From the NCBI GenBank assembly GCA_028708865.1, contig JAQVYA010000008.1, positions 1-43,887 of the forward strand: 43,887 nucleotides of DNA, given 5' to 3'. This document shows, piece after piece, positions 18,910-32,600 of the stretch (its first letter is position 1; every line of letters starts with the position of its first letter). Both the position numbers and the translations under genes were made by a program. The stretch comes from Desulfovibrio sp. GTDB taxonomy: Bacteria; Desulfobacterota; Desulfovibrionia; Desulfovibrionales; Desulfovibrionaceae. The notes under the pieces were generated by a model, which saw only the letters and a program-made list of their open reading frames with translations, had not been told where the DNA came from and made no database searches.

Positions 18910-19773
18910 CTAGTGATTCAGCAACGGTTCCAGCCGGTCCCAGATTTCGTGCATGTTTTTCCCCAGTCCTTCAGGATCGAATTCGAGGACGCTTTGGCCT
19001 GCAATCTGAGCTTTGGTAAAAGTCTCGTCATAGGGAAGACTACCGAGCACAGGGATGCTTTGTTCCCGGCAATAGTCCAGAAGGTGTTGCTCTTGTTCCT
19101 GGTTGATGCCGGACTTGTTGATGATCAGGGCGGAGGGCATTTTGAAATGGCGCGTAAGCTCATGGACACGTTTGAGGTCGTGCACCGCGGAAATGGTGGG
19201 CTCGGCCACGAGTACGGCCAGGTCCGCATCGGTGAGCGAGGCAATGACCGGACAGCCCACGCCGGGCGAACCGTCAACAAGAACAAGCCTTCGGCCAAGT
19301 TCCTCGGCCACTTCCTTGGCTTCCTGGCGTACCGAAGTGACGAGCTTGCCGGAGTTTTCTTCCCCGATGCCCAGGGCCGCATGGATCATGGGGCCGAAGC
19401 GGGTGTCGGAGCGGTATTGCTCACCGCAAGTGCGCGGGTGCATGGTCACGGCTTCGGCCGGGCAGACATACTCACAAACGCCGCACCCTTCGCAGTGCTC
19501 GGGGAGGATTACGAAATCTTCGGTAATGGCTTCGAATCGGCAGTGCTCGCGGCACAGTCCGCAGGCTGTGCAGAGTTCGGGGGCCAACGTGGGCTGCTCT
19601 CCGCTGACAAAGGGTCGGCGTTGTCGGATTTCCGGGTGGAGTATAAGGTGTAGGTCTGCGGCGTCCACGTCGCAGTCGGCCAATACTTTTTCAGGTCCGA
19701 GTCCGGCAAGGGCGGCGGTCACGCTGGTTTTGCCGGTGCCTCCCTTGCCGCTGATGACGACCAGCTGTTTCAT
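18910..19773 (-). CDS. MinD/ParA-type ATPase with two 4Fe-4S motifs (second of pair)
   Basis: This 287-residue protein has a deviant Walker A, GKGGTGKTS (residues 9-17), and a ferredoxin-like insert with two 4Fe-4S motifs: Cys68, 71, 74, 78 and Cys94, 97, 100, 104. The second half holds the switch region VDGSPGVGCPV and AEPTISAVHDLKR. It is 287 residues long, like its partner, and the two probably form a heterodimer. In Desulfovibrio, such pairs belong to the orange-protein (ORP) gene clusters; similar proteins resemble Mrp/Nbp35 Fe-S carriers. Its start overlaps the stop of the upstream partner by four bases. Confidence 0.87.
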   Translation of the reverse strand: MKQLVVISGKGGTGKTSVTAALAGLGPEKVLADCDVDAADLHLILHPEIRQRRPFVSGEQPTLAPELCTACGLCREHCRFEAITEDFVILPEHCEGCGVCEYVCPAEAVTMHPRTCGEQYRSDTRFGPMIHAALGIGEENSGKLVTSVRQEAKEVAEELGRRLVLVDGSPGVGCPVIASLTDADLAVLVAEPTISAVHDLKRVHELTRHFKMPSALIINKSGINQEQEQHLLDYCREQSIPVLGSLPYDETFTKAQIAGQSVLEFDPEGLGKNMHEIWDRLEPLLNH

Positions 19774-20633
19774 GCCAGTTTCCTCCCGGTTTGATGTTCA
19801 ATAGCGGAGATGATGGTTTCGAAATGTTCGGCGAACCCGGGAACGCCGTCAATGAGCAGGACGCCTTTGGAATAGGCCTGCGCCGCACTCCGTTCGTGCG
19901 GGAGCGAACCGAGCAAGGGAATGTTTTCCCGTTCCAGGTAGGTTTCGACGCGGTCGTCGCCCATGCCCGCTCGGTTGAGCACCACGCCGAAGGGGACGTC
20001 CAACTCCCGCAGAAGCTGTACAGCGATGTCGAGGTCATGCAAGCCAAATGGCGTGGGCTCGGCCACCAGCACTGCGAAGTCCGCTCCTTGCAAAGAACAG
20101 ACCACGGGACAGGAGGCGCCCGGCGGGCAGTCCAGTAGCGTGAGTCCTTGCTGTCCGGCCCGTTGTTTGATGGCTTTGATCAGCGGGGGAGCCATGGCCT
20201 CGCCGATACGCAGCAGCCCTTGGTAATAGGTGATGCCTTGAGCATGCCCTACGCTGCTGACGCCAATGTCCCGGGTGCCTTCGCTGATGGCGTTGACCGG
20301 GCAAGCCATCTCGCACAGCCCGCAGCTATGGCACAATTCGGGAAAGGCCATCATATGGCCGGCCATGCAGATTAATGCCTTGAACCGGCAGAGTTCCACG
20401 CATTTTTTACAGGACTCGCCAAGGCAGGTATCTTCATCAATAACGGGTACGGGAACGCGTTCGGTCCGTTCGTCTTGTAACGGGGCGGAAAGAAAAAAAT
20501 GGGCGTTGGGCTCTTCCACGTCGCAGTCCACAAAGGAGACGGGAACGCCCTTACGGCTCAAATAGGCGGCAAGGTTGACGGCCACGGTGGTTTTCCCGGT
20601 GCCGCCTTTGCCGCTGGCAATGGCGATATTCAT
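19770..20633 (-). CDS. MinD/ParA-type ATPase with two 4Fe-4S motifs (first of pair)
   Basis: This 287-residue ATPase begins MNIAIASGKGGTGKTT, a deviant Walker A with the signature Lys, and carries an inserted two-cluster ferredoxin domain: Cys70, 75, 78, 82 (one residue longer spacing than usual in the first pair) and Cys101, 104, 107, 111. The later motif LDCPPGASCPV carries the switch residues. GGGAGG precedes the ATG by four bases; the open frame extends 24 codons further upstream, but that part covers the sigma-54 promoter and is not expected to be translated. It heads a four-gene operon with the second ATPase, the CGGC protein and the zinc ribbon. ATP-driven handling of an Fe-S or mixed-metal cluster is the likely role, by family. 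Confidence 0.87.
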   Translation of the reverse strand: MNIAIASGKGGTGKTTVAVNLAAYLSRKGVPVSFVDCDVEEPNAHFFLSAPLQDERTERVPVPVIDEDTCLGESCKKCVELCRFKALICMAGHMMAFPELCHSCGLCEMACPVNAISEGTRDIGVSSVGHAQGITYYQGLLRIGEAMAPPLIKAIKQRAGQQGLTLLDCPPGASCPVVCSLQGADFAVLVAEPTPFGLHDLDIAVQLLRELDVPFGVVLNRAGMGDDRVETYLERENIPLLGSLPHERSAAQAYSKGVLLIDGVPGFAEHFETIISAIEHQTGRKLA

Positions 20634-20688
20634 AAACCTCCCGGTGATACCGTGCATTGCACGGGATGGAGTTGTTTTCAGAGTTGAT

Positions 20689-20704
20689 AGCAACGCTTGT
20701 GCCA
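20689..20704 (-). promoter_or_regulatory. Sigma-54 (-24/-12) promoter of the Fe-S ATPase operon
   Basis: On the minus strand the sequence is TGGCAC-AAGCG-TTGCT. The invariant GG and GC are exactly ten bases apart, and only one base of the core TGGCACG-N4-TTGCW consensus differs. Transcription should begin near 20678, leaving a leader of about 45 bases to the ATG at 20633. A sigma-54 promoter needs an activator ATPase bound upstream; none is encoded in the window. Confidence 0.8.
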
Positions 20705-20721
20705 TGATAAAAATATCGTTA

Positions 20722-24902: not shown

Positions 24903-24944
24903 GCCAAAGAAAAAGCGGCCTCATGAGGCCGCTTTTTCTTTGGC
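24903..24944. terminator. Perfect 42-bp palindromic bidirectional terminator
   Basis: Two 21-base arms, 24903-24923 and 24924-24944, are perfectly complementary, with a GC-rich centre (GCGGCCTCA) flanked by A-runs on the left and T-runs on the right. It separates the convergent AsmA-like and nitronate monooxygenase-like genes. Confidence 0.92.
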
Positions 24945-24956
24945 GTATGTTGTAAC

Positions 24957-26327
24957 TCAGGATTTTTCAGGGTCAGTTTGCATCCGTTCCGGCAGGTAGT
25001 CGTGCAGTTTCGTGCTGACCTTTTCCTGCATCTGCCCCAGGTATTGCCGAGCATTTTCCGTGCGTCGGGCCGCCTCTTCCTGAACTTGGTCCAGGTATTG
25101 CCGGGCGGATTCCGTACGGCGGGAGGCTTCGCTCTGCACCTGCTCCAGATACTGTTTTGCGCCTTGCTTGTATCGGGTCGCGCCATCCTGCATCTGTTCC
25201 AGGTACTGCCGCGCACCTTCCGTGTAACGACGGGTGGCGTCGACCTTATACCGCTCAGCCTCTTCCTTGAGACTGCCGAACAGGTCCTTGACGGTTACGA
25301 TCTTGTCCACGAGGTAGGCATTGGCTCCGGCAAAGGCGAATCCATGTTTGAGCAGGCCGCGCTTGGCGTTCATCAGGGCCTTGGCGATGCAATACGGACC
25401 GTCTTCCTGCGGGCAGGAGGCCAGGCATTTATACGGGCATTTATGAGGTTTGAGCAGGCCGTCCCTGACCTTGTCCAGGAAACTGTTGCCCACGGCCCGG
25501 CCCGGCAGCCCCACCGGGCTTTGGATCACGCGCATGTCTTCCTTGCCGGCGTTGACAAAGGCTTTTTTGAACTCAATGTCCGCGTCGCATTCTTCAGTAG
25601 CCACGAAACGGGTGCCCATTTGCACGCCTGCGGCGCCCATGTCCATGAAGCGGACAATGTCGCCTCCGGTGTAAACGCCGCCCGCAGCAATGACCGGGAT
25701 GGGGCGATGGGCCACCTCTTCGAATTCACGGACGGTCTCGATGGTCTGCGGGAGGATTTTTTCCAGGGCGTAATCCGGGTCATCCAGCTGCTCGGGTTTG
25801 AAGCCAAGGTGTCCGCCCGCCTTGGGACCTTCCACCACAAAGGCGTCCGGCAGTTGGCCGAAGCGCTTCAGCCATTTTTTGCAGATCAGTTTGGCTGCGC
25901 GGCCCGAAGAAACAATGGGCACGAGCTTGGTGTGCGCTTTTTCACGCAGTTCCTGGGGCAGGTGGGCCGGCATGTCCATGGGCAGGCCGGCTCCCGCAAA
26001 GATGACGTCGATGCCTTCGCGGACCGAGGTCCGCACCAGCTCCGCAAAGTTGGTCAGGGCGCACATGATGTTCACGCCGATGACGCCGTCGGAAAGTTCA
26101 CGGGCCTTGGCTATCTCGCGCTTCAGGGCGCGCAGGTCGGCTTCTTCGGGGTTGGTTGCCCGGTCCGGTTCGTACATGCCGATCATGGGGGTGGCGATGA
26201 CGCCTACCCCTCCCTCATTGGCCACGGCGGATGCCAGGCCGGAAAGGGAGATGCCCACGCCCATGCCGCCCTGCACAATGGGCAGCCGGGCCACGAGATC
26301 GCCGATGTGGAGGCTGGGAAGGTTCAT
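24957..26327 (-). CDS. Nitronate monooxygenase-like flavoprotein with C-terminal repeats
   Basis: The first 360 residues form a TIM-barrel FMN enzyme of the nitronate monooxygenase/2-nitropropane dioxygenase/FabK family. Visible are the N-terminal LPIVQGGMGVGIS, the phosphate-binding IAAGGVYTGGDI, the GPKAGGHLGF active-site loop and MGTRFVATEE. CPYKCLASCPQEDGPYC, a Cys cluster seen in anaerobic family members, follows. The substrate may be a nitronate, or the enzyme may act as an enoyl-ACP reductase. After about residue 355 comes a charged, helical tail with four 18-residue repeats (372-443), unlike the usual family end. The gene is single, with 412 bases of unassigned DNA upstream. Confidence 0.85.
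   Translation of the reverse strand: MNLPSLHIGDLVARLPIVQGGMGVGISLSGLASAVANEGGVGVIATPMIGMYEPDRATNPEEADLRALKREIAKARELSDGVIGVNIMCALTNFAELVRTSVREGIDVIFAGAGLPMDMPAHLPQELREKAHTKLVPIVSSGRAAKLICKKWLKRFGQLPDAFVVEGPKAGGHLGFKPEQLDDPDYALEKILPQTIETVREFEEVAHRPIPVIAAGGVYTGGDIVRFMDMGAAGVQMGTRFVATEECDADIEFKKAFVNAGKEDMRVIQSPVGLPGRAVGNSFLDKVRDGLLKPHKCPYKCLASCPQEDGPYCIAKALMNAKRGLLKHGFAFAGANAYLVDKIVTVKDLFGSLKEEAERYKVDATRRYTEGARQYLEQMQDGATRYKQGAKQYLEQVQSEASRRTESARQYLDQVQEEAARRTENARQYLGQMQEKVSTKLHDYLPERMQTDPEKS
24999..25214 (-). repeat. Four 54-bp coding repeats in the flavoprotein gene
   Basis: Four in-frame units encode 18 residues each with the consensus A-[RK]-Q-Y-L-x-Q-[MV]-Q, then a variable half ending in basic and acidic residues. 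Units are at 25161-25214, 25107-25160, 25053-25106 and 24999-25052. Eighteen residues equal five turns of an alpha helix, so the repeats would place the same face in line. Confidence 0.85.
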
Positions 26328-26739
26328 TCTTCAATACTCCGGGTAGGGGTGTCGGGAAAGCCTGATGCGCTCCCCTTGCGGGTGAGGACATACCCGCTGG
26401 CAGCGAGGCAGGCAAGTTTTTTCAGCCGCCTGTTTTTTAGGGAAGGGGCTGTGTTAAAAGCAAGGTAGAGGCGATGAGAAGGCATATATGTCTCCTTTTC
26501 TCTTCACCTGCGGATAGCGTAACACCTTCAGGGCCTTGAGGTCCACTGATTGTGCATGGATTTTCGGCCAATACGGTGCTCGGGAGCCAGGACGGACGAG
26601 CAAGATGCGGCTTGCCATGCCTGGGTGCGCTTTTAAGGCCTTGCGGCGCAGCATAGTTTGCGTCAGTTCGCGGCGTAGGTCAACTTCTCTCAAAGCCTTT
26701 CGCGGCAGGGCGTATATGCGTCCGGGGCTGCGTTCGACA
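26328..26739. other. 412-bp intergenic region, mostly unassigned
   Basis: No recognisable gene was found between the AddB-like stop and the flavoprotein start. A short hairpin, GCGGGT-N8-ACCCGC, occupies 26378-26397. A minus-strand open frame in 26454-26693 is listed separately with low confidence. The flavoprotein promoter must lie in the part nearest 26328 but no convincing -35/-10 pair was seen. Confidence 0.5.
26454..26693 (-). CDS. Doubtful small basic ORF
   Basis: From a TTG at 26693 an open frame of 79 codons encodes a basic polypeptide with LRREL, RILLVRPGSRAPYWPK and KVLRYPQVKRK. AAAGG lies two to three bases upstream, too close to be convincing. No family is recognised, and in GC-rich DNA a frame of this length can be open by chance. 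Confidence 0.2.
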   Translation of the reverse strand: MREVDLRRELTQTMLRRKALKAHPGMASRILLVRPGSRAPYWPKIHAQSVDLKALKVLRYPQVKRKGDIYAFSSPLPCF

Positions 26740-29679
26740 TTATTTGCCGCAAGGTCCGCGGTAGTCGCAAAATCGGCAATGGGCCCCTTCCTGCGGCAGA
26801 AAGGCGTCTGCTTCGGCCAAATGTGTGGCCACGGCCTGAAGTAGGGCAGGGCAGAGTTCTTGTACGGCTTCCAGGCGTTCTTCCGGCGTCCATTTCTCAG
26901 GAAACAGACCGTATTCCCGTCCATCTTTGGCAAGTTGGACCCAGGCGGCGTTGTCCGGTGTTTCGTGGTGTGTTTCACGGTACATATAAAGGTAGGCCGG
27001 AAGCTGGATGCCTCGGGCTGATTCCCGGATGCCCCTGAGCAGGGTGGGGTCCTGGGGTGAGGGGTGCCGGATGCGTTCCCAGAGCGCCTCGTCGTCCCAG
27101 AATCCCCGGCGAGGGCGTTGGATGCTGCCGGTTTTGTAGTCCAGGATGAGGACACCCTCTTGCCGTCGGTCCACCCGGTCCAAGCGGCCGTGCAATTCGA
27201 TTTTCCGGTTCATCAGAACAAGCTGCCCCCGGGCCTGGCGTTCCAATTCCAGAATGCGCGTGGGACCTTGGTTTTCGAGAAAGCTTCGCAGTCGCAGGCT
27301 GCCCGCCTCCAACAGGGCCCGTCGGGCGTCCAGAGGCATGCGGGGATAAAACGCACTCCGCTCCAGGGCTGAGGCAAAGGCTGTGGTCAATTCGTCAGCC
27401 GGGAGTGTCGATACATTGATTTCACCCACTTCGGATTCCAGCCGGGGCAGCAGAAAATCCCGCAGCGTTTCATGTACCACAGTGCCGAATTCCGCCCGGT
27501 CACCGTCTTCGTCCATTTCTTCGGGGGGGCGCAACGGGGTAAGGTAGTGGTAGAAAAATTGTTTGGGGCAGAGCAGGTACTTCTCCAACTGGGAAGGGCT
27601 GAGCCCCTTTTCAGCAAGCTTGGCGTCCAGCAGTGCCTGCAAGGCAGGAGTGCGTTCAATGGCGGCCAGCCCGTGTTGTACCGGATCAGAGCGGAAACGT
27701 ACCGCCGTGAGCGGCGGACCGTCACCCGGCTCCACCAGCTTGCCCAGTTGTTTTTCCTTTTCCCAGAGCAGTTGCTCCACATACCTGGAGCGAACGCTTT
27801 TACCTTCCAGGGCTCCGGGTTGTATGCCGCTTTGGTACAGCAGTACCGTGCTGTCCGATCCCATGACCAGGCGGTGGAAGTTGTAGGCGGCCACATGGTC
27901 CCGCTCCCGGGCGTCAGGCAGCCCCAATAGGGGGCGCAGGGCGTCCGGCAGGAGCGGATCCACCGGGCTGTTGCCGGGCAGGCGTTCCTCCACGGCATCG
28001 AGAACGAACAGACGCCGAAAGCGGAGCAGGCGGGTTTCCAGAACTCCCATGACTTGAAGTCCGGTCAATGGTTCGGCCTCAAAGGAAACCCGCTCCCCAC
28101 GGCAGAGCTGCCGGAAGAGCGAAAACAGAATGCCCGTGCCCAAAGGTTCACGGCTCATGGCCGTGTCCAGGAGTTGGGGAATGACGCTGGTAAGCAGTCG
28201 GGCCAGGTATTCGGCATCCGTGACGTATGCTTTCCAGAGATGGGCACCCGAACGCAGCAGCAGGTCTGCCAATTGATGCAGGGCCCGGGCCATGTCCGCC
28301 AGGGTTTCCATCTGGGCAAATTCTTCCAGGCAGACGTTCAGCAGGTCGTGACGCAGAGCTTCCAGGGCCGGGACCTCAGCCGGGGCGATACGCTCCAGGG
28401 GGGCTTCTCCGTAAGGAGGCAGCCACTGATCCGGGGACTGCATGGGCTCCCCCGCGCGAATGGCTTTTTCCAGCCAGAGCAATACGGGCCGCAGCGGGGC
28501 TTCGTTCTCAGCACGGAGCATTTTCAGGTAGGGATGGCGCAGCAGTTCGAGCAGATCGCGCCAATAATAGCGTCCTTGGGCGTCCCGGTTCTCGCGGCAG
28601 CGGAGCACGCTTTCCACGAGTTGGTATAAGGCGGTGCGTTCCAAAGGGTAGCCCATGGAGACGTTGACTTCTTTGTGCTCGGGCAGGTGGTGCAGCACGG
28701 GCAGGAGCGCGCCTTCATCCGGAAGAACCACGGCAGTGTCGGCCGCGTCCGGGTCTTGTTGCAACTCGCGGCGTAATTGCGAAAGCTGGGAGTGGAGGTC
28801 AAAACCTTCCACAAAGCGGATTTCCGGGGCATGAATCGGAGAGGGGGTATCCGGGTCGTGAAGCAGTTCCACACGGGCGTTCCAGCGTCGCATCCAGGCT
28901 CGCTGCTCCACTGTGCAAGGGTGCGCCCTCTTGCCGGGACGGGCCAGATTCGGATCCGAATGCCAAAAGACATGCAGTTGCCCGCGTTCCCAGAGCCCCT
29001 GGAAGACAGCGTCTTCCACTCCGGACAGAGCGTAGAATCCGGCGCAGATGACCTCCTGCCCTCCAAGGCCCAGAGGGGGCTCGGTTTCCAGGGCATTGGC
29101 CAGCTGGTGCATGACCATGTGGGCGTCTCGCCCCGGCGTGGTCCAACCACGTTCGCTCAGGCCGTGCAGGTATTGGGTGTGAAATTGGGAAAGGTGCTCC
29201 AGCAGGGCGGCGGCCCAGTCGATGACTTCCCCTTCCAGGTACTGGATGTCTTCGGGAGGGATGCCTTGACGCAGCAATTCTTCAAGCAGGGAGGCCAGCC
29301 GTAGGCCCCAGGGCAGGAACCGGTCCCGTTGCAGCGGCAGGTCGGCCAGCAGGCCACCTTGATCCCGGCGCAGAGTAACGGCGATGTCGTACAGTAAGGC
29401 GGCCTGATCCAGCTTTCGGGCAGGGCGGAGCGGGGTTGCCACAAGTCCGCGTCGCAGGTGAGTGGTCAACTCTTCAAAGGAATGCATTTTCGGCAGGAGC
29501 CGTGGACGCGATAATCCCGGGTGCGTTGCGAAAAAACGTTTCAGATACAGGGCTGGGCGCTGGTGCGGAAAGACAATGGTCAGGCGGCGCGGGTCGCGGT
29601 GGGCCGTAAAGCGTCCCAGGGCGTGGATGAAGTCCGTGCGCCAGTCTACCAGTTGGATGGCGTTGTGTGCGGGGGTCAT
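26740..29679 (-). CDS. AddB-like RecB-family nuclease
   Basis: This 979-residue protein resembles AddB, the partner of AddA in double-strand break repair. The PD-(D/E)XK nuclease core near the C terminus shows FGTVVHETLRDF (His), LHGRLDRVD, and LDYKTG. A 4Fe-4S staple of the AddB/Cas4 kind is formed by the Cys in LCPKQFFYHYL and by CRFCDYRGPC at the extreme end. The N-terminal helicase-like half lacks a Walker A motif. The ATG at 29679 has AGGAGG about nine bases upstream, and the start is one base from the AddA-like stop. The longer frame to 29772 overlaps the partner and is not preferred. Confidence 0.85.
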   Translation of the reverse strand: MTPAHNAIQLVDWRTDFIHALGRFTAHRDPRRLTIVFPHQRPALYLKRFFATHPGLSRPRLLPKMHSFEELTTHLRRGLVATPLRPARKLDQAALLYDIAVTLRRDQGGLLADLPLQRDRFLPWGLRLASLLEELLRQGIPPEDIQYLEGEVIDWAAALLEHLSQFHTQYLHGLSERGWTTPGRDAHMVMHQLANALETEPPLGLGGQEVICAGFYALSGVEDAVFQGLWERGQLHVFWHSDPNLARPGKRAHPCTVEQRAWMRRWNARVELLHDPDTPSPIHAPEIRFVEGFDLHSQLSQLRRELQQDPDAADTAVVLPDEGALLPVLHHLPEHKEVNVSMGYPLERTALYQLVESVLRCRENRDAQGRYYWRDLLELLRHPYLKMLRAENEAPLRPVLLWLEKAIRAGEPMQSPDQWLPPYGEAPLERIAPAEVPALEALRHDLLNVCLEEFAQMETLADMARALHQLADLLLRSGAHLWKAYVTDAEYLARLLTSVIPQLLDTAMSREPLGTGILFSLFRQLCRGERVSFEAEPLTGLQVMGVLETRLLRFRRLFVLDAVEERLPGNSPVDPLLPDALRPLLGLPDARERDHVAAYNFHRLVMGSDSTVLLYQSGIQPGALEGKSVRSRYVEQLLWEKEKQLGKLVEPGDGPPLTAVRFRSDPVQHGLAAIERTPALQALLDAKLAEKGLSPSQLEKYLLCPKQFFYHYLTPLRPPEEMDEDGDRAEFGTVVHETLRDFLLPRLESEVGEINVSTLPADELTTAFASALERSAFYPRMPLDARRALLEAGSLRLRSFLENQGPTRILELERQARGQLVLMNRKIELHGRLDRVDRRQEGVLILDYKTGSIQRPRRGFWDDEALWERIRHPSPQDPTLLRGIRESARGIQLPAYLYMYRETHHETPDNAAWVQLAKDGREYGLFPEKWTPEERLEAVQELCPALLQAVATHLAEADAFLPQEGAHCRFCDYRGPCGK

Positions 29680-29680
29680 G

Positions 29681-32600
29681 TCAGCGTGCCTCCTGAGGGC
29701 TGGTAGGGAGGACGGCCTGGACTTCCTGGCGGTCGAGATAAACCAGGAGTCCCCGGGCCGGTGTGTGTGCATCCCACGCCGTGAGCAGGTTCAGATAGGC
29801 GGCCAGTTGGGGGGCGTGCGCCGGGTCGTGTCCACCGGTCTTGAATTCCAGTACCAAGGTGGTGTCCGGGGTGAAGTACACAAGGTCCGGGCGTTTGAGC
29901 GATGTTTCCGAAGTTTCATCACCGGTGACCATGTCTGGCTCATGCGCCCCGTGCAGCAATGCAGGGCGTAGTTCCGGCCGGGAAAGCGCCCAGGAAAGCA
30001 TTGCCGTGACGTCCTGTTCCAATCCCTTCCGTTCTTCCTCGGCCATGGTGGCCAGGACAGGGAACTGGTGCAGTGCACTTTGTGCGGCATGGCATGCGGC
30101 CTGCCGTAGTTCTTCCGGAGTCGCGTCCTTGCCGGGACGGGGCGGTCGAAGCAGTTCCATGGCTTTATGCGCTACGTCGCCCCGCAGCCGGGCGGAAAGG
30201 TCGGCCACGTCCCGTTCCATGTGTCGATACACGCGAAGCCGGGCCTGCCATGCGGGCGGCGCGCTGTCGGTTTCGGGCTCTGTTTCCTCTTCGTCACAAG
30301 GGGGCTGGGCGGGTTGTACCAACGTATCCTCAACAGCTAAAGAGGGAGTGCCTGAAGGAGGATTTGTTTGCATCTGCCGAGGGTCTTCTTCGGGGACGGA
30401 AGGCATGGTGCCGTATTCAAACGTGTCCTGGCCCTCGGGCAGTTCCAAAACCAGTTCGATGGCGTCCGTGGCCGGGCTTTTTTGGCGAGGTCGTTTTTCT
30501 GGAAACCAGGCGTAGAGTTCTTCACGGGCGCGGGTCCAGGTGACGTACAACAGATGCAGGTCTTCCAGCACGCCGCTACGGACTTTGGCCTGATATTCGG
30601 GCCCCAGGGCCGACACCATGCGGGTGAGAACGCGTCGTCCTTGAATATCCACTTCCGTAAGCCCCTGGGAGGCGGGCCAGGGCCAGTAGAGGAAAGGGGC
30701 GAAGACAACGGGGAATTCCAGTCCTTTGGACTTGTGGATGGTCATGATGCGTACGGCGTCCACATTTTCCGGCAGGGGAACTTTTTCTTCGCCGCTTTTC
30801 TCCTGCCAGAAGTCCAGAAAGGCCGAAAGAGAACCCATGCCTCGCTCCGAGGCGCGGTGTACCACTTCCTGAAAACGACGAACGTGGAGTTCGGCTCCTG
30901 GGTGCCGTTCCAGCACGCAGAAGAAGGCCAGCATTTCCGCCACCAAGTCATAAGGCGTGAGCAGGCCGGTCTTGCGGGAAAACGGTGCGAGCCAATCTTG
31001 CCAGAGCCGGGGCTGGTCCCGTTGCAGGACTCGCCAGAGGGGCTTGCGGGCATCGGCCCCTTGGAGGCCAGCCAGCCATTCGTGCATCTGTAGTCCCTGG
31101 GACTGGTCGGGTCCCGCAGGCGGATAGGCGGTTTCGGGGAGCAGGGTGCCGCCCAGAAGCAGCTCGGCAAGGGCCATGTCTTCGTCGGGATGCTCCAAGA
31201 AACGCAACAGAGCCACCAACTCGCGTACTACGGGGTGGCGATCCAGTTGGAGACTGTTTTCCGTGATCACGGGCACGCCTTCGGAGACCAGTCTGTCGCA
31301 GACAAGGGCCGCATGATCGTGAGAGCGCACCAATACGGCCATGTCCCGCCAAGCCCGGCGAGGGCGCACTCCATGCAGCAGTCGGGAGGTCAGGGCTTCC
31401 AGGGCCTGCTGTTCCACCTCGTGCCGGTCGTCCGAACCGGGCAGTCGTTGCACCTGGACGTATCCGCCCTTGCGGGGCGCGGCACCCTCCGCAGGCGGCA
31501 GGGTTTGGTGCGCATCCTGGAATTCGCTGGAAAGGGCGCGGGCCAGGACGGCCACGTCGTCCGGACTGGCTTTCCGGCCCAGGCAACGCTGCGCCAGGTC
31601 GGCATTGAGGTCCGAATCCGCCAGGCGCGTAAAAAAGTGATTGTTAAAGGCCACCACGCGGTCCAGACTGCGCCAGTTGTGCGGCAGCTGGTCCGAGGTG
31701 TTGCGCAGGGCAATGGGGGCCAGGTCGGGTTGGGAACGGATTTCATCGAACAGGCTTGCATCGCCGCCGCGCCAGCCATAAATGGCCTGTTTGACGTCCC
31801 CCACGTAGAACAGGCTGCCGCCTTTGGCCAGGCATTCCTGGGCCAGAGGCGTGACCGCGGCCCATTGGTCTCGGCTGGTATCCTGAAATTCGTCCACGAG
31901 CAGGTGGTGCAGCCGTCCTCCCAGACGGCAAAAGGCATCAGGGGCCCCACCGCCATCCTCAAGTCGGCGGCGGACCATGTGCGGCAGGCCCAGACCCAGC
32001 ACCTGTCCACGTTCCTGTTCGATGCGGGACAACTCCCGGGCAAGGCGTTCCGCCAGCTGGACGCAGGGAGCCAGATAAATGGCTCCGCTGAGAATGGCCT
32101 GCTCCCGGCCGTAGCGTTGCAGGGTTTCCCGCAGCCGGAAGTAGAGCACATCGTCTTCCTCGGCCACACGGCCTTGGGATTTTTTGAGCAAGCATTCAAT
32201 GAGGGATTGCTTGGAGGCATACGCCGAGGTGTGGGGGGCTTCGGTGGGAAAGCCCACGTCCCGACATTTGCACAGGAAGTTTATAAAATTTTTGCTTCCT
32301 TGTAATTCCTTGGAAGCCAAACGTTTTTCCAAAGCCGTGGCCGCGTGAACCAGCGAAGCGTGGGCCGGGCGCAAGAGTTCCCGCAGTTCCTCCTGGTCCG
32401 TACACAGGGGGCTGTCTGACCCTCGTAAGTGGCGCATGATTTCCTGGAGGCGAGTGCGGATTTTATCCGCTACCCAGAACCCTTCGGACTGCTCCTGGTG
32501 CAGCAGTGTGGACAGCGCCTTTTCCAGCAATTCCCGCTCCGGGGAGTCGTCTTCGAGGCAGGCGGCCTGAAAGCGTTCCAATACCGAGGCGAAGATCTCC

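Follow-up and report, generated by a model that had tools for sequence, protein, structure and literature searches.

The window analysed here is a 43,887-nucleotide stretch of Desulfovibrio sp. DNA (assembly GCA_028708865.1, contig JAQVYA010000008.1, positions 1 to 43,887 of the forward strand), and our subject is a reverse-strand gene at 24957..26327 whose 456-residue product appears to be a FabX-like flavin mononucleotide (FMN)/[4Fe-4S] enzyme with a repeated helical tail. Along the protein, an FMN-binding triosephosphate isomerase (TIM) barrel (residues 1-296, 25440..26327) is followed by a four-cysteine motif (residues 297-313, 25389..25439) and by a last helix that leads into four 18-residue units and a short cap, all on the reverse strand. 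The units are RYTEGARQYLEQMQDGAT (residues 367-384, 25176..25229), RYKQGAKQYLEQVQSEAS (residues 385-402, 25122..25175), RRTESARQYLDQVQEEAA (residues 403-420, 25068..25121) and RRTENARQYLGQMQEKVS (residues 421-438, 25014..25067), and the cap (residues 439-456, 24960..25013) is recognisable in all three members of the genus that carry the tail, its end being predicted to be unstructured. The motif A-[RK]-QYL-x-Q-[MV]-Q occurs four times at an exact spacing of 18 residues (ARQYLEQMQ, AKQYLEQVQ, ARQYLDQVQ and ARQYLGQMQ), just as a preliminary description of this DNA had reported; its coordinates (25214-24999, reverse strand, residues 372-443) are reproduced, while the register used for the units in this analysis is residues 367-438.

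The mean BLOSUM62 score of the tail at a lag of 18 residues is 2.02, a value that none of 1000 tail shuffles reached at any lag tried. The best of 539 control segments of 100 residues, drawn from 11 coding stretches of the window including the gene's own core, scored 0.96 (it lies in a product that we take to be LpxD-like, itself a repeat protein). At the DNA level four copies of 54 nt lie at 25019-25234 with spacings of 54, 54 and 54, the three others being 61-74% identical to the reference copy, and Tandem Repeats Finder reports a period of 54 with 2.3 copies in the same tail DNA. When codons were permuted with the protein held constant, the identity between copies (0.53) equalled the permuted mean (0.53), and 215 of 500 permutations were at or above the observed value. 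The copies are thus no more alike than the protein dictates, and are therefore old; the repeat is maintained at the protein level, and recent slippage of the DNA is rejected for this genome (G000 among our genome handles). The same test gave a slight excess of DNA identity in a second genome of the genus, G013 (8 of 500), and in the distant G008 (13 of 500).

Tails of this 18-residue type were found (E <= 0.001) in 3 of 288 genomes of the family, G000, G054 and G013, all belonging to one genus (g1), in agreement with the earlier remark that such a tail is unusual for the family. The comparison of repeat number among orthologues, which the same description had proposed, gives four units in G000, four in G054 and five in G013, and the alignment difference is one clean gap of 18 residues. 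No second copy of the tail was found in its own genome at E <= 1, and with this single copy and the occurrence in 3 of 288 genomes the idea of a mobile domain was rejected. The enzyme itself gives a match at E <= 1e-20 in 170 of 199 family genomes (136 of the 149 of good quality), and at E <= 1e-60 in 186 of 199 genomes of an order sample consisting mostly of Desulfovibrionaceae. For the three pairs within the genus, the ratio of nonsynonymous to synonymous substitution rates (dN/dS) is 0.13, 0.27 and 0.40 in the tail and 0.06, 0.11 and 0.08 in the core, values that are rough because dS (0.77-1.92) is near saturation. Judging from these ratios, the tail is under purifying selection that is looser than in the core.

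The preliminary description had called the enzyme nitronate monooxygenase-like, which holds at the superfamily level, where Pfam NMO (PF03060) matches residues 14-355 with 164.4 bits (E 5.9e-48) against a gathering score of 28; its closest solved relative, however, is Helicobacter pylori FabX, with its [4Fe-4S] motif. FabX chains (named 2-nitropropane dioxygenase in the PDB sequence search, and FabX in the entry titles of the Foldseek and VIA-align matches) are the top sequence matches at E 4.4e-71, the next being FabK at 1.1e-22. They also head the fold matches in Foldseek and in VIA-align, where FabX gives Z 39.4-44.1 with a root-mean-square deviation of 2.6-2.7 over 327-346 aligned residues, and FabK Z 37.2 and below. 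With nitronate monooxygenase and 2-nitropropane dioxygenase our protein has the superfamily in common, and structures bearing the title nitronate monooxygenase or nitroalkane oxidase rank below both FabX and FabK. A FabK identity was rejected on the NCBIfam model TIGR03151, which scored 127.3 bits (124.7 in the genome search) against a curated cut-off of 453.1. In the plasmid collection, 297 records were returned, all of less than 60% identity.

FabX is an essential, structurally solved enzyme (PDB 7E1Q, 7E1R, 7E1S, 9LT5 and 9LT8; PMC8626469, in extract), and the extract states that other characterised members of the superfamily have no Fe-S cluster. Our protein has in common with it the FMN barrel, the catalytic His, the four-Cys [4Fe-4S] subdomain and the basic residues on the helix that binds acyl carrier protein (ACP), whereas FabX is a tail-less enzyme of 363 residues that uses oxygen as electron acceptor and ours continues into a repeat helix of about 100 residues. 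Residues were mapped from that source through a HMMER alignment. All four cluster ligands of FabX (C300, C304, C308 and C320) are kept, as C297, C301, C305 and C313; the last three are invariant in 17 of 17 aligned sequences, and C297 stands in 15 of the 17 when the alignment is read by eye; in the remaining two a Cys stands one column further on. Also kept are the catalytic His182 as His173 (25809-25811), Ser273 as Ser270, and N99, E175, Q240 and T243 as the FMN ligands Asn86, Glu166, Gln236 and Thr239. Among the ACP contacts, K152, I156, K159, R160 and R164 retain their character as Arg143, Leu147, Lys150, Lys151 and Arg155 (four basic and one hydrophobic), and T130 and N131 do not, being Met117 and Asp118 here, so that character is kept in 5 of 7; some backbone and tunnel positions also differ, and F74 and Y75 have no aligned residue. 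Aligned residues are only 35-39% identical to those of FabX, and we therefore call the enzyme FabX-like and not FabX; on present sequence and fold comparison, FabX-like is a better name than nitronate monooxygenase. Its substrate would be acyl-ACP, and the putative [4Fe-4S] cluster would be bound by the four cysteines.

The preliminary description took the tail to be helical, with five turns in every 18 residues and a single amphipathic face, and structure prediction agrees. A full-length, single-chain AlphaFold2 (AF2) model from 17 sequences, with a mean predicted local distance difference test score (pLDDT) of 82.8, has one continuous alpha-helix over residues 346-448 (24984..25292, reverse strand), which begins as the enzyme's own last helix and extends through all of the repeats. 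Block means of pLDDT are 80-86 over residues 361-430, 74 over 431-440 and 52 over 441-450; values fall below 50 at residues 446-456 and again in the poorly predicted cysteine segment 296-309, perhaps because of the shallow alignment. Folded alone as a single sequence without alignment, a procedure that informs on helix propensity and not on packing, the tail gives one straight helix over residues 2-94 of 102, with pLDDT of about 97-98 over most of its length, and the helical hairpin that we considered was not seen. The hydrophobic moment of this tail peaks at 3.66 residues per turn, which 0 of 500 shuffles reach. The tail is accordingly predicted to be helical and not disordered, just as it is confined to one genus and not shared by orthologues throughout the family.

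Across the 13 units of the three species, R1 and A6 are present in 13 of 13, Y9, L10 and Q12 in 12, and A17 and R7 in 10 each (the rest being Val and Lys, respectively). Five positions per unit, 2, 6, 9, 13 and 17 (Tyr/Arg, Ala, Tyr, Met/Val and Ala), form a seam with 4-3-4-4-3 spacing, flanked by Leu10, which is the pattern of an 18/5 coiled coil. The periods 7/2, 11/3 and 18/5 are all coiled-coil periods (PMC4786415, in extract); the period found here lies within the range that this source gives for coiled coils, and its spacing consists of threes and fours. Such coiled coils and this tail have 18 residues in five turns in common, association in the present case being putative and one seam position often being Arg. 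The hydrophobic arc extends over roughly 80-180 degrees, thus about 100 degrees wide, with Ala at its centre, and the acidic residues Glu and Asp occur most often at 280-320 degrees. Mean hydrophobicity and entropy correlate at -0.19 over the 18 positions; the degree of conservation does not follow hydrophobicity because the polar R1, R7 and Q12 are conserved as well. The mean hydrophobicity of the tail is close to 0, and the net charge is +1, 0 and +6 in the three species.

Affinity for lipid was estimated over 18-residue segments with a HeliQuest-type score (our own script) and the thresholds of 0.68 and 1.34 given in PMC5742235 (in extract). Segments above 0.68 number 12 of 93 in this tail, and 9 of 94 and 49 of 109 in the other two genus members, and none exceeds 1.34 in the three genus members or in G022, G008, G197, G274, G138, G163 and G103. 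A tail from a Spirochaetales metagenome-assembled genome (MAG) has 3 of 100 above 1.34. On these models, the narrow Ala/Leu/Tyr seam together with the low lipid scores favours a putative stalk of coiled-coil or bundle type over attachment to a membrane. The preliminary description had proposed attachment to a membrane, a polymer granule or a partner; of these, attachment to a membrane or granule is only one option, the narrow 18/5 seam fitting a coiled coil at least as well.

To place the tail among its relatives, we read the C-termini of 148 family orthologues, 12 enzymes from the order's other families and 15 named records; long open frames were chosen preferentially, and the resulting counts are biased frequencies. 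Duplicates of the same gene (L001, L049-L051, L053, L108 and L032, the last being the gene of L006), the non-orthologues L052, L054 and L055, the distant paralogue L048, and L079 (whose core lies outside its stretch and was re-read as L146) were left out before counting. Also outside the count are unlisted family orthologues, those whose frames of about 380 residues or less leave no room for a long tail, and several members of the order's other families with frames of up to 571 residues, so that long tails are perhaps undercounted; L199 runs off its contig, and its tail length is a minimum. Past the equivalent of residue 356, 127 of the 148 family enzymes have 25 residues or fewer, 12 have 26-39 and nine have at least 40. 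These nine are the three of genus g1 (100, 101 and 116 residues), G022 (78), G197 and G274 (44 each), G138 and G163 (40 each) and G008 (125). Outside the family, tails of at least 40 residues occur in 0 of the 12 from other families and in 1 of the 15 named records, the Spirochaetales MAG (107).

The periods of the long tails differ. The strongest lag is 18 in G000 and G054 and 36, then 18, in G013 (0 of 1000 shuffles each); it is 11 in G022, G197, G274, G138 and G008 (0 of 1000) and in G163 (1 of 1000). Two short tails, those of G103 (1 of 1000) and G184 (7 of 1000), repeat at 7. No significant repeat was detected by the shuffle test in the tails of G277, G280, G058 and G136, and the Spirochaetales tail (L044) repeats weakly at a lag of 29 (score 0.21, 0 of 1000), with no clear short repeat and a hydrophobic moment that is not significant (174 of 500). 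The tail of G008 is a plain 11-residue repeat and also a 33-nt array of 8.4 copies. It belongs to locus L169 (G008:C1:203500-211000), where the FabX-like gene at 4580-3267 on the reverse strand encodes a 125-residue end in which some ten units of 11 residues, resembling ATRAGLDQAVE, follow one another, presumably synuclein- or LEA (late embryogenesis abundant)-like. In the repeated tails the hydrophobic moment peaks at 3.51-3.71 residues per turn, and, with 100 degrees taken for each residue, 7, 11 and 18 are the only periods between 5 and 20 that end no more than 20 degrees away from a whole number of turns. Though made after the fact, this comparison argues that an in-register face is what selection keeps.

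The number of times that such tails arose is uncertain, since some pairs of tails are more alike than shuffles allow. In a quick tree whose only support measure is the Shimodaira-Hasegawa-like approximate likelihood ratio test (SH-aLRT), which leaves 17 of its 55 inner branches open and in which gain and loss are indistinguishable, genus g1 and G022 form one clade (support 97), and G197/G274, G138/G163 and G008 lie amid short-tailed enzymes, the position of G138/G163 resting on a support of 83. The G022 tail resembles those of the three genus members with Z of 8.6, 4.2 and 6.2 (0 of 300 shuffles each) and, being also in one clade with them, was counted with them as one origin. Other pairs above shuffles are G197-G008 (Z 5.9, 0 of 300), G138-G103 (Z 4.0, 1 of 300), G022-G197 (Z 3.6, 1 of 300) and G022-G008 (Z 3.4, 3 of 300), most of which the tree separates. 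A common origin of all long tails is unsupported overall, although it may hold for some of these pairs, and we put the number of origins within the family, with uncertainty, at about four. L009 and L061 (tails of 21 residues) and L059 and L062 (14 residues), from G103, G285, G273 and G272, are very close enzymes with end branches of 0.003-0.01 that lie one seven-residue step apart. L035 and L036 lie on MAG contigs labelled Patescibacteria; their FabX-like enzymes, which share 66 and 63% identity with ours, fall among those of Desulfobacterales, and would reflect either transfer or mis-binned contigs.

The reading that we prefer, tentatively and with confidence that stops somewhat short of calling it probable, is that of a FabX-like enzyme for acyl-ACP whose helical stalk, built from repeats, serves self-association or docking. 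The gene would encode a FabX-type flavoenzyme, with FMN and a [4Fe-4S] cluster, acting on ACP-borne acyl chains; tandem duplication of an 18-residue unit would have extended the C-terminal helix beside its Fe-S subdomain until it formed a rigid stalk of about 100 residues; and this stalk would most likely pair with itself or with another long helix, either making the enzyme an oligomer or docking it to a partner such as an electron donor or acceptor. Directly behind this reading stand the repeats, the helix prediction, the FabX-type motifs, the restriction to one genus, the selective constraint, and the in-register tails of period 7, 11 and 18 in this and related enzymes. Several points weigh against it. 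Most family enzymes read have no such tail, seam position 2 is Arg in 5 of 13 units, the argument from periods was made after the fact, and tails of different period or clade are sometimes more alike than shuffles. Arg on both flanks of the hydrophobic face with Glu on the far face is, moreover, the layout of lipid-binding class A helices. The identity to FabX lies below the >50% of the published census, and the extract of PMC8626469 reports H. pylori FabX as 1:1 with ACP, consistent with light scattering, and alone crystallised as one monomer per asymmetric unit, so that self-association would be new.

The main alternative, doubtful and not favoured but possible, is that of an amphitropic tail: a long and only weakly amphipathic helix, lying on the membrane, would sense lipid packing or charge in the manner of CTP:phosphocholine cytidylyltransferase. 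The enzyme does belong to a lipid-synthesis family, the tail has a single amphipathic face, and among solved structures, where the tail has no relative at E < 0.09, the best matches are apolipoprotein A-I chains. Several sister tails have an 11-residue period, and the 3-11 helices of apolipoproteins, synucleins and perilipins are associated with repeats of 11, 22 or 33 residues (PMC6164224, in extract). Even repetitive helices of weak hydrophobicity can bind lipid surfaces (PMC8064757, in extract). As a comparison of how the tail might work, the helices of CTP:phosphocholine cytidylyltransferase, apolipoproteins, synucleins and perilipins thus offer a long amphipathic helix on a lipid-pathway enzyme or lipid protein. 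They are, however, built of 11-residue units as against 18 here, the strongest lags in the three genus members being 18, 18 and 36 (then 18), and no sequence relation rises above a cut-off: the weak Pfam matches to Apolipoprotein and ApoLp-III reach 13.7 and 15.0 bits for the protein and 16.6 and 19.2 for the tail alone, far under the cut-offs of 90 and 36.3. Against membrane attachment there also stand the Ala-centred arc of about 100 degrees and the absence of any segment scoring above 1.34 in the genus members or the seven relatives, even with the 3 of 100 in the Spirochaetales tail.

Less likely again is lineage-specific growth with little function, in which slippage lengthens a helix that tolerates in-phase additions and selection only purges tails that break or aggregate. 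The short ends of 127 of the 148 family orthologues, the variable number of units and the faster evolution of the tail relative to the core are what such growth would leave behind, but a tail dN/dS well under 1, seam and flank residues near-invariant over 13 units, and the helix register held by several differently built tails all speak for constraint beyond this. Phasin-like attachment to a polymer or storage granule is highly improbable, for it rests on the general likeness of long amphipathic helices, no phasin family appears among the Pfam and NCBIfam matches shown for the tail and the whole protein, and the flanking genes are AsmA-like and AddB-like or PD-(D/E)XK-type, no search having been aimed at granule genes.

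What the enzyme does in the genus may be approached through the other genes of fatty-acid synthesis, for which the genomes used are 89.5% (G000) and 99% (G013 and G054) complete. Each has one FabA/FabZ-type gene (PF07977), which is compatible with the decanoyl-ACP dehydrogenation and isomerisation of FabX and with a FabX role in unsaturated fatty acid synthesis; that of G000, presumably FabZ, lies in this window between open reading frames that we take to be LpxD-like and LpxA-like. As a test across the family, FabX presence against FabA absence proved uninformative, since a single PF07977 gene is likewise present in genomes without a FabX-like match, such as G035, G034, G032 and G037, and G001 has two. 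TIGR03151 matches below 1e-10 only the FabX-like gene in G013, G054 and seven further genomes, never over its cut-off, and its matches in G000 are that gene and two others, weak and partial, none over the cut-off. PF13561, searched for FabI, gives four matches in G000 and five each in G013 and G054 (two of those in G054 being one gene). NCBIfam assigned three of these proteins from G000 and three from G013 to FabG, to other short-chain dehydrogenases or to no family at threshold, and the remainder are by eye FabG-like, IspD fusions or short-chain dehydrogenases, so that no FabI was recognised in the three genomes by either route. The same search does find FabI in G103 (L176), with up to 336.6 bits to FabI models, under their cut-offs, and none by eye among five matches in G138. 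With FabI in G103 but not seen in G000, G013, G054 or G138, all of which have a FabX-like gene, the enoyl reductase repertoire looks patchy. PF12241 (FabV) gave no match, nor did it in any of 14 controls. FabV aside, genus g1 may have no known enoyl-ACP reductase other than the FabX-like enzyme.

Because each genome has one FabA/FabZ-type gene, no FabI among its PF13561 matches and no FabK over the cut-off, we also entertain, as a rather unlikely extension, that the FabX-like enzyme is the genus's enoyl-ACP reductase. It would be fed low-potential electrons through its [4Fe-4S] cluster, as a ferredoxin- or flavodoxin-dependent equivalent of FabK, and the stalk, reinvented several times in the family with periods of 7, 11 and 18, would serve assembly or docking to the electron carrier. 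For a strict anaerobe, enoyl reduction runs downhill, and the oxygen-dependent FabX direction does not. FabK, the FMN enoyl-ACP reductase II, has the barrel fold and the catalytic His in common with our protein (Z 37.2), and in a genus where no FabI was recognised its reaction would be a plausible one, although the FabK score here is far under the cut-off. Against this extension stands the dehydrogenation by FabX itself, for which oxygen was the only acceptor found (PMC8626469, in extract); on the hosts of FabX homologues, the discussion in that source calls most of the bacteria in its census anaerobic and elsewhere mostly microaerophilic.

No functional link between the FabX-like gene and its neighbours was seen in the neighbourhood comparison. 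The upstream neighbour (26740-29772), which we take to be AddB-like and in which Pfam finds a PD-(D/E)XK nuclease, also stands beside the FabX-like gene in G054, G013 and the distant G008, and in the 9.5 kb read on either genus member, G054 and G013, around its FabX-like gene no AsmA-like neighbour was found. The AsmA-like and FabX-like genes of the window converge on a perfect 21-nt inverted repeat without spacer (24903-24944), which looks like a two-way terminator. An antisense open frame of 496 residues (24978-26468, forward strand) covers nearly the whole FabX-like gene and is probably an artefact of codon bias. Elsewhere in the window, two adjacent MinD/ParA-type ATPase genes occupy 18910-20705 on the reverse strand; the upstream one (19770-20705) matches 4Fe-4S ferredoxin-type families, and the second has similar Cys motifs by eye.

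A literature search returned no paper joining FabX with Desulfovibrio and none that by its title concerns such a tail, and a search on 18-residue or hendecad periodicity returned no paper; as far as these searches show, the tail series, its recurrence and the possible lack of another enoyl reductase are new. For anaerobic FabX homologues an oxygen-dependent reaction is hard to run, and a genus without another recognised enoyl-ACP reductase makes the reaction of these homologues testable. The family also provides a natural series in which one enzyme carries almost no tail or helical repeats of 7, 11 or 18 residues, helices that grow in steps which keep their register, and deletions within this series could tell what a lipid enzyme gains from such a tail.

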